Shown here piece after piece: positions 17,936 to 23,118 of a stretch of DNA of 45,249 nt. The stretch is from Oscillospiraceae bacterium (GTDB lineage: Bacteria > Bacillota > Clostridia > Oscillospirales > Oscillospiraceae). How positions within the stretch are numbered: position 1 is the stretch's first letter; every line of letters starts with the position of its first letter. The position numbers and the translations under genes were made by a program. The notes under the pieces are model-generated. The model ran no database searches. It saw only the letters and a list, made by a program, of their open reading frames with translations, and was not told the DNA's origin. The DNA lies in NCBI GenBank assembly GCA_024697625.1, contig JAILFJ010000037.1, forward strand, positions 1-45,249. The letters run 5' to 3'.

Positions 17936-19180
17936 TTACTTTGCAAAGACCTTCTTCAGCTTTGCGTAGCGGGGAAGAGAATCCTCCTTCGGGACTTCCG
18001 CTTCACCCTGAATCAGCGGAAGGACATACGCGATGAAGTCATCGGTCAGACCGTTATGCTGCGGATTGATCCACTCCAGGGGAACTTTTTTCTCGTAATT
18101 TGCAACCGACTCCAGGGGCAGCAGCTTATAGACACAGTGGTAAGCTCCGTCAACCGTCTCACGCTCAAATGCAACCATGTAACCACTCTCACCCTCGACA
18201 GCCTTCTCAACGGCAACACGTCCGGCGTTAAAGGCTTCTTCCACATCCGTGGCAGAGGCAAGGTGCGCACCGCAGCGCTGAAGAAGGCTCAGCTCAATGC
18301 CGCGCACTTTGGCGTTGGTATGTGCTTTGACAACCTCGGCAAGCATCGAAGCAAGACCGCCTAACTGAGCATGGCCGAAACCATCGGTTGCAGAGGTCTT
18401 TGCTTCTGAGACAAAGCTTCCGTCCGCATAATGGATCCCTTCGGAAACAGCAACAAAGCACTTGCCGTTTTTCTTATCCAGCACATCATCGACATCCGCG
18501 AGAAACTGCTCCATGCTGAAATCACACTCGGGAAGATAGACGAGATCCGGCCCGGAACCGTAAGCCGTAGCGAGAGCGGCGCTTGCTGCGAGCCAGCCGG
18601 CATGACGACCCATGATTTCGACAACAACAACCATACGGTTATCGTAGACTCGTGCATCCTTGTTGATCTCCATGCAGGAAGTAGCAATATACTTGGCAGC
18701 ACTGGCAAAGCCCGGACAATGATCGGTACCGTAGAGATCGTTGTCGATGGTCTTGGGAACGCCCATCACATGGCAGTCGTAACCGACAGACTTCATATAC
18801 TTGCTGATTTTATTGCAGGTATCCATCGAGTCGTTTCCACCGTTATAGAAGAAGTAGCGAACATTGTACTTCTTGAAGATCTCAAGGATGCGCCTGTAAT
18901 CACTGTCATCTACGTCCGGATCAGCCATCTTGTAGCGGCAGGAGCCGAGCTCGGAGGATGGGGTATGAAGCAGATAGCGCAGTTCTTCCGGATCTTCTTC
19001 GTCCATGATATAAAGCTGGTCGTTCAGGACACCCTGTATGCCGTGGAATGCGCCGTAGACCTTGGTGATTTCCTTCGCCTCCAAGGCAGTTTTGATCACA
19101 CCGTATGCGCTTGCATTAATCACGGAGGTGGGCCCGCCGGACTGACCGAAAATGCAGGAACCGATTAGCTTTTCTGACAT
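17936..19180 (-). CDS. pfp: 6-phosphofructokinase, pyrophosphate-dependent type
   Basis: The start at 19180 (MSEKLIGSCIF) has AAGGAGA 6 nt upstream, giving 414 residues. GQSGGPTSVINAS opens the nucleotide site. GGNDSMD (114-120) and VPKTIDND (141-148) are decisive: ATP enzymes have GGDGS and a Gly in the second motif, whereas PPi enzymes carry Asp and Lys at those places, as here (D117, K143). The first Asp of GGD is Asn, as I recall for a long clostridial and archaeal clade. IMGRHAGWLA and PECDFS are substrate-binding landmarks. Phosphorylates fructose-6-phosphate, probably reversibly with PPi. It is monocistronic, with its own intrinsic terminator. Confidence 0.88.
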   Translation of the reverse strand: MSEKLIGSCIFGQSGGPTSVINASAYGVIKTALEAKEITKVYGAFHGIQGVLNDQLYIMDEEDPEELRYLLHTPSSELGSCRYKMADPDVDDSDYRRILEIFKKYNVRYFFYNGGNDSMDTCNKISKYMKSVGYDCHVMGVPKTIDNDLYGTDHCPGFASAAKYIATSCMEINKDARVYDNRMVVVVEIMGRHAGWLAASAALATAYGSGPDLVYLPECDFSMEQFLADVDDVLDKKNGKCFVAVSEGIHYADGSFVSEAKTSATDGFGHAQLGGLASMLAEVVKAHTNAKVRGIELSLLQRCGAHLASATDVEEAFNAGRVAVEKAVEGESGYMVAFERETVDGAYHCVYKLLPLESVANYEKKVPLEWINPQHNGLTDDFIAYVLPLIQGEAEVPKEDSLPRYAKLKKVFAK

Positions 19181-19322: not shown

Positions 19323-20258
19323 ATGCCTCTGGTAACTACGAAGGAAATGTTCGAAAAGGCCTACAATGGTGGTTACGCTATCGGTGCGTTCAACGTGAAC
19401 AACATGGAGATCGTCCAGGGAATCACCGAAGCTGCAGCGGAAGTGCGCGCACCGCTGATTCTTCAGGTTTCCAAGGGAGCCAGAAAGTACGCGAACCATA
19501 CCTATCTGATGAAGCTGGTTGAGGCTGCCGTGATTGAAACCGGTCTTCCGATCGCACTTCATCTGGACCACGGCGACTCTTTTGAGCTTTGCAAGTCCTG
19601 CATCGACGGTGGCTTTACCTCGGTGATGATCGATGCCTCTTCCAAACCTTTCGAAGATAATATCGCTCTTACCAGACAGGTTGTCGAATACGCCCATGAT
19701 CACGGTGTCGTCGTTGAAGCCGAGCTTGGAACGCTGGCCGGTATTGAGGACGAGGTTCAGGTCTCGGCCGAAGACAGCTCCTACACCCGTCCCGAAGATG
19801 TACAGGAGTTTGTTCAGCGTACTGGCTGCGACTCTCTCGCGATAGCCATCGGTACCTCTCACGGCGCCTATAAGTTCAAACCGGGGACGGATCCCAAGCT
19901 TCGCCTTGATATACTGGAAGAAGTGGAAAAGCGCCTTCCCGGATTCCCGATCGTGCTGCATGGTTCTTCCTCTGTTCCGCAGGAATTTGTCAAGATGATC
20001 AATGAGAACGGCGGCGCGATGCCCGGTGCCATTGGCATTCCCGAAGAGCAGCTCCGCCTCGCAGCCCAGAAGGCAGTCTGCAAAATCAACATTGACTCGG
20101 ATCTTCGCCTTGCCATGACCGCCTGTATTCGGAAATACTTTAATGAGCATCCGGATCACTTCGATCCCCGCCAGTACCTTGGTCCGGCAAGAGAAGCAAT
20201 CCATGCGATGGTCAAGCATAAGATTGTGGATGTCCTCGGGTGTGACGGGAAAGCATAA
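19323..20258 (+). CDS. fba: Class II fructose-1,6-bisphosphate aldolase
   Basis: Zinc aldolase splitting fructose-1,6-bisphosphate into the two triose phosphates. In 311 residues the catalytic and zinc residues appear as LHLDHGD (D82, H83), AELGTLAG, the GTSHGAYKF His near 180 and VLHGSSSVP with the His near 214. GGGAGAG precedes the ATG. The opening PLVTTKEMFEKAYNGGYAIGAFNVNN is typical of this class. The gene opens a plus-strand unit that includes the P-type-ATPase-like gene 32 nt downstream. Confidence 0.97.
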   Translation: MPLVTTKEMFEKAYNGGYAIGAFNVNNMEIVQGITEAAAEVRAPLILQVSKGARKYANHTYLMKLVEAAVIETGLPIALHLDHGDSFELCKSCIDGGFTSVMIDASSKPFEDNIALTRQVVEYAHDHGVVVEAELGTLAGIEDEVQVSAEDSSYTRPEDVQEFVQRTGCDSLAIAIGTSHGAYKFKPGTDPKLRLDILEEVEKRLPGFPIVLHGSSSVPQEFVKMINENGGAMPGAIGIPEEQLRLAAQKAVCKINIDSDLRLAMTACIRKYFNEHPDHFDPRQYLGPAREAIHAMVKHKIVDVLGCDGKA

Positions 20259-20290
20259 AGCCCGGGTCATCTAAGAGAAGGAGGCATAAA

Positions 20291-21931
20291 GTGAGCCCTG
20301 AGAGAATACGTGCTAGGCACAGCTCGGATCATTCCGGGAAAAAGCAGGGCAGCTTTGAGATTGCACTGCCGGTCCGCCTGGTTTTTTCGGCAGTACTGGT
20401 GATCATTTCTGCACTGTTTCAGTTACCTGTATGGCTCCGAACAGTCCTGTTGGTTGTCTCTGTTGTGTCCTCAGGATATGATGTTTTTCTTGCGGCTGTG
20501 GATGAGATTGCGGATAAACGCTACTTCTCCACAGAACTTGTGATCGTATTCGCTGCTGTCTTATCTTTCGTAATCGGTTTCCCAACCGAAGCTGCGATTA
20601 TGGTCATTCTATATCAGCTATCCAAAATTGTATTTCGGTACACCAAAAACAAATCCATCGATTCTGCGCGGGCACTTCTCAGCTATCAGGACAACGATAT
20701 TCAGGGGCGGGTAGAGGAGATCATCAGTGACGGCCATCCAGGCGAAATGAGACTCCAGCGCACAATCGAAACCAGCGCTACGTTTGTGCTGCGTCTTCTG
20801 ATTGTATTTGCATTGATCTATGCGATAGCACTGCCTCTCCTTACCGGAATCAGCTTTCGCGTCTCTATACACAGGGCTTTGATGATTCTTCTTGCTTCAT
20901 CTCCAGTGTCTGTCGCAATCTCGTTTCCGATTATTGTAATCACCGGTCTCTGTTTTGCCGCACGCAATGGTGTTGTGTTCAGCAGCGTTGGAGCCATGGA
21001 GAAAGCCTGCGATCTGAATGTCGCTCTGTTCGACAAGGACGGTGTGTTTTCAGACGAGGCGCCTCATCTGATCGGGTTGCAGTCGGATGTTCTGGATAAA
21101 AAAACGTTCCTGCATTTTCTGGCCCACGCAACGTATTATTCAGACCAGCCGTTCGCAAAAGCAATTTCCGATTATTACGATCAGGAATACCGCCTTGATC
21201 TGGTCAGCGACTTCAAAGATATCCCAGGTTACGGCGTATCTGTAAGCATCGGTGGTGCTCCCGTTGTTTTGGCATCCAAGGTTTATTATGATGAGCAGGG
21301 GATTGAGGTCCCGGAACGCGGTTTTCCTGAGGGAATCCCGTATTACCTGACCGTCGCAGACCGGTATGTTGGGCGGGTGGTCATATCGGCAGAGATTGAT
21401 CAGGACGCCGTCGGTCTTGTTGAAGACATGCAAATGGCCGGAATTCCGAGAAACATCCTCATTACTGAGGATGGCAAGGAACAGAGTCAGTCAGTCGCAG
21501 AGTCTCTTCACTTCACTGAAGTAGTCGGGGAATGCGATATGGACAGAAAGCTCCGCCTCATAAGTGACATTTCCCAGGATGAGCAGAACTGTACGACCTT
21601 TATCTATGCCAATGGAATAGAGGGTCACAGTGCGGCAGATCTTGATATCCGGATCAGCAGAAAAGGAAAATATGCCGATGTCATCGTGCTTCCGGATTAT
21701 TACCTCAATATTCCACATTCTTTTGGGACCTGCCGCAGAGTCAAGGAACTGTTCGCAGAAAACGCCATCTTCATTTTTGTAGTCAAGGCAATTCTTATTT
21801 TCCTCAGCATCATTGGCTACAGCAACCTCTGGTTCGTTGTTTTCATAGACACTGTTGCGGCACTGGCAACAATCCTGAATGCCATTCGTGTCACCATGCC
21901 GTCGCTATTGCAAGGCAAATCTGAACGTTGA
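20291..21931 (+). CDS. Degenerate P1B-type ATPase-like membrane protein (probable pseudoenzyme)
   Basis: The GTG at 20291 has AGGAGG 6 nt upstream; 546 residues follow. Order and spacing match a heavy-metal P-type ATPase: membrane helices, the stretch ASSPVSVAISFPIIVITGL then AARNGVVF, the P-domain and a final helix pair (about 486-508, 512-533). Key residues differ. The metal-site CPC is SPV (204-206). DKTGT is DKDGV (248-252, Asp kept). The N-domain SEHP is SDQP (284-287), though PGYGV remains. The GDGxND hinge is ANGIEGH (440-446). The actuator domain with TGE is missing: only about 45 residues (122-165) separate the flanking helices. Long and uninterrupted, so not decayed. Transport activity is very unlikely; a regulatory or structural role is inference. 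Shares fba's transcript by spacing. Confidence 0.75.
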   Translation: MSPERIRARHSSDHSGKKQGSFEIALPVRLVFSAVLVIISALFQLPVWLRTVLLVVSVVSSGYDVFLAAVDEIADKRYFSTELVIVFAAVLSFVIGFPTEAAIMVILYQLSKIVFRYTKNKSIDSARALLSYQDNDIQGRVEEIISDGHPGEMRLQRTIETSATFVLRLLIVFALIYAIALPLLTGISFRVSIHRALMILLASSPVSVAISFPIIVITGLCFAARNGVVFSSVGAMEKACDLNVALFDKDGVFSDEAPHLIGLQSDVLDKKTFLHFLAHATYYSDQPFAKAISDYYDQEYRLDLVSDFKDIPGYGVSVSIGGAPVVLASKVYYDEQGIEVPERGFPEGIPYYLTVADRYVGRVVISAEIDQDAVGLVEDMQMAGIPRNILITEDGKEQSQSVAESLHFTEVVGECDMDRKLRLISDISQDEQNCTTFIYANGIEGHSAADLDIRISRKGKYADVIVLPDYYLNIPHSFGTCRRVKELFAENAIFIFVVKAILIFLSIIGYSNLWFVVFIDTVAALATILNAIRVTMPSLLQGKSER

Positions 21932-22039: not shown

Positions 22040-22068
22040 TTGACAGGAGAGAGCAAAACGTGTATGAT
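22040..22068 (+). promoter_or_regulatory. Promoter of the Xer-type recombinase gene
   Basis: Consensus TTGACA (22040-22045), 17-nt spacer, TATGAT (22063-22068), leaving a leader of about 60 nt. Confidence 0.75.
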
Positions 22069-22134
22069 GGCAAACAGATATAATATCGCATAATATAAAT
22101 TTAACGAGATTGTATAGATGGGAGAAAACAGCAG

Positions 22135-23118
22135 ATGAATCTTGACAGTATTACAGATGCACCAGATATTCTGATGGAGTTTCTGGAATATCACTCAACG
22201 GTACGTGGCCATTCCGACCGAACTGTAAACGCTTACTATACCGATCTGAAAATCCTGTTTCGCTATCTGAAGCGACGCAGACATCTCGTGCCTCGGGACA
22301 TGCCTTTTTCTGAGATTGATATCACCGATGTAGATCTGGATTTCATTCGATCGATCCGGATTGAAGAACTGTACCGTTATCAATCCTTTTCACCGGAAAA
22401 CACGGACACATCGCTCTCTGCGGCAAGCAGATGTCGTCGGACGTCATCTGTGAAATCCTTTTATAATTATCTGGTCGCAAAACGTCATCTGTTAGAGCGC
22501 AACATCGGTCTTGAACTTGACATGCCAAAGAAACAGGCTTCGCTTCCTCGGTATCTTCAGGAAGAGGAATGCGAACGCCTTCTAGCAGCCTGCGACGGAC
22601 CGTATCAATATCGGGATTACTGTATTCTGATGCTCTTTCTGTGCTGTGGCCTTCGAATCTCGGAACTGGTCTCGATCAATGTGCAAGATATTTACGAGGA
22701 CCATCTGCGCGTGCTCGGTAAAGGCAATAAAGAGAGAATTGTCTTTTTTGCGGAAGGATGCAGAGAGGCCATCGATGACTATCTTGCAGTCAGAAACGCA
22801 GAAAAAACCAGAGATTCCGATAAAAATGCTCTCTTTATCAGTCAGAAAAACTGCCGCTTCGGAGCTCGGGGCATCGAACAGATGCTGGAACGAAAGCTGA
22901 AACAGGCGGGACTTGATGCAAGCCGCTATTCGCCCCATAAGCTGCGTCATACGGCGGCAACTCTGATGTTGAAGAACGGCGTGGACACGCGTGCGCTGCA
23001 GGAGGTCCTGGGACACAGCAATCTCAACACAACACAGATCTATACACATTTGGACAACGCTGCATTGCGGGAAGCTGCCAGAGCAAATCCTATTGGCAAG
23101 AAGAAAAAGAACGAGTAA
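22135..23118 (+). CDS. Tyrosine recombinase, XerC/XerD type
   Basis: A 327-residue site-specific recombinase. An N-terminal SAM-like core-binding domain (about 10-125) precedes the catalytic domain with all active-site residues: R174 (CGLRISEL), K196 (GKGNKER), H268 and R271 (SPHKLRHTAA), H294 (LGHSNLNTTQIYTH) and nucleophile Y303. GGGAG precedes the ATG. Size and sequence fit chromosome dimer resolution by Xer better than a phage or transposon integrase, and no mobile element surrounds it. Its 3' end overlaps the convergent trmK gene by 29 nt. Whether it is the XerC or XerD partner cannot be settled here. Confidence 0.9.
   Translation: MNLDSITDAPDILMEFLEYHSTVRGHSDRTVNAYYTDLKILFRYLKRRRHLVPRDMPFSEIDITDVDLDFIRSIRIEELYRYQSFSPENTDTSLSAASRCRRTSSVKSFYNYLVAKRHLLERNIGLELDMPKKQASLPRYLQEEECERLLAACDGPYQYRDYCILMLFLCCGLRISELVSINVQDIYEDHLRVLGKGNKERIVFFAEGCREAIDDYLAVRNAEKTRDSDKNALFISQKNCRFGARGIEQMLERKLKQAGLDASRYSPHKLRHTAATLMLKNGVDTRALQEVLGHSNLNTTQIYTHLDNAALREAARANPIGKKKKNE

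Follow-up and report, generated by a model that had tools for sequence, protein, structure and literature searches.

What job is left for a protein that is built like a heavy-metal pump and has lost the parts with which a pump works is the question raised by this locus. The window, i.e. the whole stretch of 45,249 nt that was analysed (Oscillospiraceae bacterium, assembly GCA_024697625.1, contig JAILFJ010000037.1), encodes on its forward strand an open reading frame of 546 amino acids with a GTG start (20291..21931), the product of which probably has a different, non-pumping job. A sequence-only reading had described an intact frame with a near-perfect ribosome site beside fba, and so we found it: a Shine-Dalgarno sequence, AAGGAGG, lies at 20278..20284 (forward strand), with similar sites in many orthologs, and fba (19323..20258, forward strand; PF01116, E=9.5e-104), encoding a class II fructose-bisphosphate aldolase, lies 32 nt upstream. 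Class II aldolases are metal-dependent enzymes. A phosphofructokinase gene, pfk, is divergent from fba (17936..19180, reverse strand; PF00365), and the gene is followed by a tyrosine recombinase of the phage integrase family (22135..23118, forward strand; PF00589), which we take to be XerD-like (xer). fba and the gene are probably co-transcribed.

Among solved structures the protein comes closest to Zn/Cd and Cu PIB ATPases (7qbz, E=1e-23; 4umv, E=2e-19; 3rfu, E=1e-16), and it aligns in order, as had been proposed, with solved PIB ATPases and with a reference set of 26 ordinary pumps. Homology extends in order across the M, P and N domains, placing the protein in the P-type ATPase superfamily by descent. 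TIGR01525 matched with E=3.8e-42, yet its 145 bits are far below the cut-off of 346 bits. Pfam gave only sub-threshold matches, to PF00122 (profile positions 95-180 of 181) and, weakly, to PF00702; among 28 family members searched with E up to 1, PF00122 was met in 24/28 and PF00702 in 8/28. Hydropathy analysis revealed membrane cores at residues 27-65, 81-111, 166-185, 192-217 and 493-527, five cores from which we infer eight helices. Judged by its sequence, the protein is a homolog of PIB-2 (Zn/Cd-type) P-type ATPases, belonging to PIB-2 by descent only.

Seventy family copies from the window genus were aligned jointly with the 26 references, 14 proteins of a sister group and nine of a second family without an actuator (A) domain, both described below. 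Copies with split frames (G105, G102) and one split over contigs (G064) were left out of the 70 rows; two included rows, L055, which runs off the end of its contig, and L153, for which a late start was chosen, are taken to account for the single gaps in the alignment. Three ordinary pumps (L028-L030) had been drawn in by the first genome search. SCPCA, FDKTGT and GDGIND are present in 26/26 references, and the TGE pattern was matched in 23/26. The stretch between helices M2 and M3 (residues 118-163; 20642..20779, forward strand) is a linker of exactly 46 residues in 70/70 copies, vs 132 residues, A domain included, in 25/26 references and 120 in the remaining one. About 86 residues of the A domain are thus missing, and the partial PF00122 match appears to cover the portion that follows the A core. 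An A domain hidden elsewhere in the chain was considered and rejected on sequence grounds, as PF00122 matches only the later part of its profile both here and in L182, a relative from another genus. The actuator, including TGE, is therefore absent by sequence, and the proposal that it is reduced to a short linker was borne out by the length of the linker and by the profile search, the PF00122 match of which appears to leave out the A core.

Four motif replacements read from the letters were confirmed in place by alignment with the solved PIB ATPases and the references, all on the forward strand. SPV stands for the CPC metal ligands of M4 (20900..20908), and either Cys is found in 0/70 orthologs. 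DKDGV replaces DKTGT (21032..21046), with the Asp and the Lys each retained in 67/70 copies, the first Thr in 2/70 and the final Thr in 0/70. SDQP replaces SEHP (21140..21151), where the His has become Gln in 68/70 and Leu in 2/70; in ATP7B, His to Gln at this position is a known Wilson disease change. At the GDGxND Mg site, which reads ANGIEGH (21608..21628), the first Asp is present in 1/70 and the second Asp position is gapped in 70/70; a newly conserved H446 lies inside it, and D452 and R454 lie just after. The claim that every catalytic signature is lost stands only in part. CPC, the DKTGT threonines, the SEHP His and GDGxND are gone; Asp248, Lys249, Gly251, Lys420 and GxG are kept. With neither TGE nor GDGxND, the protein should be unable to run the transport cycle of phosphorylation and dephosphorylation.

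The residues that are kept are nearly invariant among orthologs: the phospho-acceptor Asp248 and its neighbour Lys249 in 67 copies each, the P-domain Lys420 in 66, Gly251, and the N-domain GxG (G313 and G315; 21227..21235, forward strand) in 70/70. The ion path, on the same strand, includes E100 (20588..20590), corresponding to the exit-path acid E202 of ZntA (Glu in 67 and Asp in 3 of 70 orthologs); N491(x)7K499 in M5 (21761..21787), an N(x)7K motif with the Lys corresponding to ZntA K693 (K499 in 69/70, one gap); and D520...N530 in M6 (21848..21880), a remnant of the PIB-2 signature DxG(x)7N in which D520 corresponds to ZntA D714 (68/70, one gap and one Glu) and the Gly of DxG is lost. The PIB-2 features in M5 and M6, N(x)7K and the Asp, are hence both present, by equivalences taken from the pairwise 4umv alignment with positions counted by hand. 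The acid equivalent to E214 of the entry funnel, also counted by hand, is found in 0/70 copies. According to passages of PMC6305203 and PMC8880997, the Zn site of ZntA consists of C392, C394 and D714, E202 serves release, and the K693-D714 pair acts as a built-in counter-ion.

Constraint is strongest in M5-M6 and the cytosolic N domain. The N domain is conserved above the P domain in 544/600 sampled family pairs vs 2/325 reference pairs. The same inversion, weaker, occurs in the second family (22/36 pairs) and the sister group (68/91), and is thus a mark of dead pumps in general and not specific to this family. At 26 positions conservation is 90% or more in the family and no more than 15% in the references, e.g. 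Q286, P258, H446, D452 and R454.

Some match was found in 60/60 genomes of the first search (the window's own included), and in 27/60 a family match covered most of the length, again counting the window genome and with one match broken off at the edge of its contig. Counting listed matches of a 28-row profile at E < 1e-80, we found the gene in 73/102 genomes of the genus, two of them with split frames and one with the gene split over contigs. In the former (L156 in G105 and L157 in G102) the pseudo-ATPase lies in two frames, reflecting recent loss or assembly error. Eighteen listed non-overlapping pairs (77-98% identity) gave dN/dS of 0.013-0.155, ratios that are rough for several pairs, including the lowest, as their dS exceeds 1.5. 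fba lies upstream in 72/73 genomes; the remaining copy starts at the edge of its contig. The gap to the gene is 9-65 nt in 69/72 and -14, 117 and 320 nt in the others, for which the start choice may be off. The usual order is pfk(-) fba(+) gene(+) xer, except that xer is inverted in L043 and L050. With selection purifying, catalytic residues lost, intact motifs or an A domain in 0/70 copies and the linkage to fba kept, the locus fits the maintained pseudoenzyme that had been proposed. The broken frames and drifting lengths of a decaying pseudogene were not seen beyond the two split genomes, and a one-off decay was rejected on the spread of the gene, its dN/dS and the fixed length of the linker. 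A plasmid search matched 2,726 records, all with best places below 60% identity and two spanning 80% or more of the query; the best five of the 2,726 matches are all annotated as heavy-metal P-type ATPases.

The gene is absent from 29/102 genomes of the genus. In three of these fba is followed directly by xer, with no gene remnant detected between them (best tblastn E 0.04), and in a tree of 49 rows the three group as a single clade surrounded by carriers, which points to loss of a gene that is dispensable there. Two further genomes have fba at a contig end. In the remaining 24/29, no fba was found at E <= 1e-60, and 22 of them also lacked pfk and 21 xer at 1e-40; we read this shared absence of fba and the gene as mainly a matter of missing contigs. 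Functional co-loss of the two was considered and set aside, as missing contigs are simpler for most of these genomes, except G060 and G119, where xer is present and neither fba nor the gene was found in the preceding 1.5 kb. G060 (L170) has instead of the usual locus a distant pfk-fba pair, about 40% identical. A common stretch precedes xer in the window (about 22040-22100) and in the fba-xer gaps of the three gene-less genomes (L164-L166), with TTGACA/TATAAT-like boxes and CGCATAATATAAAT. In those three genomes it sits in a short inverted repeat, and it is possibly the promoter or operator of xer.

An order sample (295 genomes, up to four candidates scored in each, E limit 1e-60) and a class sample (391 genomes, up to three in each, E limit 1e-75) listed no A-less match outside the genus. 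This view of a genus-restricted distribution was overturned by two samples of the bacterial family, one of 120 genomes with fuller scoring and a wider one of 250 genomes (up to five candidates in each, matches listed to about 1e-91), which revealed at least 14 A-less loci in seven other genera, a match being called A-less when it started before profile position 30. Repeating the order search with that profile, over 295 genomes, listed none outside the bacterial family. Twelve of the 14 loci directly follow fba (G418 twice, G474, G908, G958, G431, G934, G878, G480, G914, G962 and G460; not G455 and G486), and the two copies in G418, a MAG with 6% contamination, each adjoin their own fba. All 14 proteins retain the M5 Lys and the M6 Asp, 12/14 the M2 Glu (one Asp and one Gln in the others) and 6/14 CPC; their M2-M3 stretch measures 29-50 residues. 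L182, which is copy 1 of G418, and the g228 proteins have Cys/His-rich N-terminal tails. The neighbour genes of L224 (G455), which is not fba-linked, resemble those beside fba-linked copies (L229, L230, L233), suggesting a moved locus.

Intact and half-way forms were found as well. L233 (G439, g193) has the order pfk-fba-ArsR-intact PIB-2 ATPase, with TGES, SCPCA, DKTGT, SNHP and GDGIND, and L234 (G926, g168) has the same arrangement; their ArsR genes were recognised by PF01022 (E=3e-13 and 7e-15, respectively). L235 and L236 carry ArsR and an intact ATPase, with no fba within the stretch examined. At L237 (G918, g152) fba is followed by a dead pump of 662 amino acids, the A domain of which matches PF00122 (8e-26) and the motifs of which read TGS, SPC, NKPGT and GDCECG.

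A second A-less family is encoded in nine genomes of the genus (L061-L063, L147-L152), including that of the window (G000:C24:18619-20274; L063:1458-3116). These proteins of 552-568 amino acids resemble the fba-linked ones in that the A domain is also deleted, leaving a linker of 39-41 residues, and differ in that KTGT, HP, TGD and GDGxHD are kept and the phospho-acceptor Asp is replaced by Ser (6/9) or Gly (3/9). In the seven genomes with both families, the second is either on a different contig or at a distance of about 57 kb. L068 and L069, first placed in it, are ordinary pumps by their motifs. The sister group (L133-L146, same genus) consists of pseudo-ATPases of about 650-700 amino acids with a stretch of A-domain length, namely 132 residues between M2 and M3 in 14/14; the Glu of TGE is kept in 1/14 and the phospho-acceptor Asp in 5/14.

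Trees were built with the A columns removed. The first used 24/70 genus copies; a wider one used 6/70 of these, 5/14 sister and 3/9 second-family proteins, and left out five references, i.e. CAN_L073, nearly identical to CAN_L074, and four of seven flagged for composition. In the first tree the genus copies form a single clade (SH-aLRT 100), and the second A-less family falls inside the sister group. In the wider tree 18 fba-linked A-less rows form one group with L233, L235, L237 and L238 (support 99), inside which the A-less proteins of g172 and g228 fall with the intact L233/L235 (92) and those of g185, g234, g214 and the window genus with the dead L237 (98). This group excludes L234 and L236, which form a pair of their own (100), and support for the deepest split is only 27%. 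The free tree splits the fba-linked A-less set and a single clade fits equally well (AU p=0.515), so that one or two losses took place there; we do not claim two. A single loss for both A-less families was rejected on the wider set (AU p=6.8e-13, with groups named after the trees had been seen); an earlier test on a smaller set had not been significant (p=0.097). The second family is, by these trees, of separate origin, and the A domain would have been lost at least twice in the bacterial family, under the model used. Two pseudo-ATPases, L056 and L132, cluster with L058 (SH-aLRT 100), but fba, xer and pfk place them apart in the genus tree, which reflects either a long-branch effect or gene exchange.

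The intact and intermediate loci that adjoin fba in other genera apparently record the stepwise change of an efflux operon. An ancestral operon of ArsR and a PIB-2 ATPase downstream of fba would have lost ArsR, catalysis, the A domain and, in some lineages, the thiol ligands, while the helices, the charged residues of the ion path, usually the catalytic Asp, and the N domain would have been retained. The order of these steps is not fixed, since catalysis is gone and the A domain kept in L237, and the A domain is gone and the metal ligands kept in L182. It counts against a simple story that, of the two intact pumps following fba and arsR, only L233 groups with the A-less proteins.

The most plausible task for a frame that should be unable to cycle, yet is strongly constrained, is to sense or dock something. 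We therefore favour, with a probability of about 0.55, a non-pumping membrane receptor or regulator descended from a PIB-2 ATPase that stood with ArsR downstream of fba. The eight-helix frame, held by the M5-M6 Lys/Asp pair and the M2 Glu, would act as membrane receptor or anchor, and the N domain, conserved to an unusual degree and perhaps still able to bind a nucleotide or some other phosphorylated ligand, would report to a partner or dock it. The frame was probably a Zn sensor ancestrally, the thiol ligands having gone in the window genus. The best candidate for the partner would be the adjacent class II aldolase, or metal homeostasis. Fba is the candidate because of its linkage, and linkage can be inherited: the adjacency may be synteny handed down rather than functional coupling. 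Loss of the gene in the three-genome clade that keeps fba was counted against the receptor or regulator. Going further, heavy-metal pumps in one bacterial family might have turned repeatedly into actuator-less frames, and the product of the fba locus might have become a receptor in the membrane through which the state of metals or nucleotides reaches the zinc-type class II aldolase and hence glycolysis; this we put forward tentatively, as a proposal that may well not hold.

The transport-path residues, which rank among the best-kept membrane positions, would also suit an ATP-independent conduit or carrier, through which an ion (ancestrally Zn2+) passes down its gradient via E100, K499 and D520 with the cytosolic domains as gate. 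The full CPC/K/D site persists in 6/14 out-of-genus relatives, and according to passages of PMC6305203 HMA4 cannot do without the equivalent Asp, Lys and Glu, nor ZntA without the Asp. Those passages also describe the Lys-Asp pair as closing the path in ZntA, so its retention may be structural; as thiol ligands are absent from 70/70 genus copies, and the E214-equivalent acid with them, we regard a conduit as unlikely. The protein might instead regulate an intact PIB-2 pump of its own cell or dimerise with it. The window genome does encode such a pump, a ZntA-like one (L064), but on another contig, the constant neighbour being fba; this role is distinctly unlikely.

Conserved adjacency to fba, together with constraint that peaks in M5-M6 and the cytosolic N domain, would also suit a passive scaffold merely tethering Fba/Pfk to the membrane, but this leaves the charged residues in the membrane, and CPC in some relatives, unexplained, and we find it improbable. 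Least of all do we expect a slowly decaying, functionless relic: the split frames in L156 and L157 and the three genomes without the gene at an otherwise intact locus speak for it, and against it stand 70 aligned frames with low dN/dS, a fixed linker and newly conserved Q286, H446, D452 and R454.

To our knowledge, P-type ATPases are considered unable to do without their A domain. Among the matches listed from a search of open-licence literature, titles and abstract openings held nothing on A-domain-less or fba-linked P-type ATPases, and neither did excerpts of PMC10654040 and PMC3308323. A large A-less group under selection, joined at the fba locus by intact pumps, by a dead pump still bearing its A domain and by A-less forms that have or lack the metal ligands, amounts to a natural dissection of which pump parts are re-usable, and in which combinations. 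Whether transporter folds turn into receptors becomes a testable question, and the locus is a candidate for linking glycolysis to metal status in gut Clostridia that have not been cultured.

Among known systems, HAD phosphatases have a related P domain, to which the weak PF00702 match points. Conversion to such a phosphatase was rejected because the Asp at the third position of their DKD-type motif, present in the window copy, occurs in only 2/70 orthologs. The closest known systems are the PIB-2 (Zn/Cd/Pb) ATPases ZntA and CadA (TIGR01525/TIGR01512). The protein differs from them in having no A domain or TGE, CPC, DKTGT threonines, SEHP His or GDGxND, and shares with them the plan of helices, the order of the P and N domains, GxG, N(x)7K, the M6 Asp and the M2 Glu; arsR-ATPase operons of this class also lie downstream of fba in two other genera.
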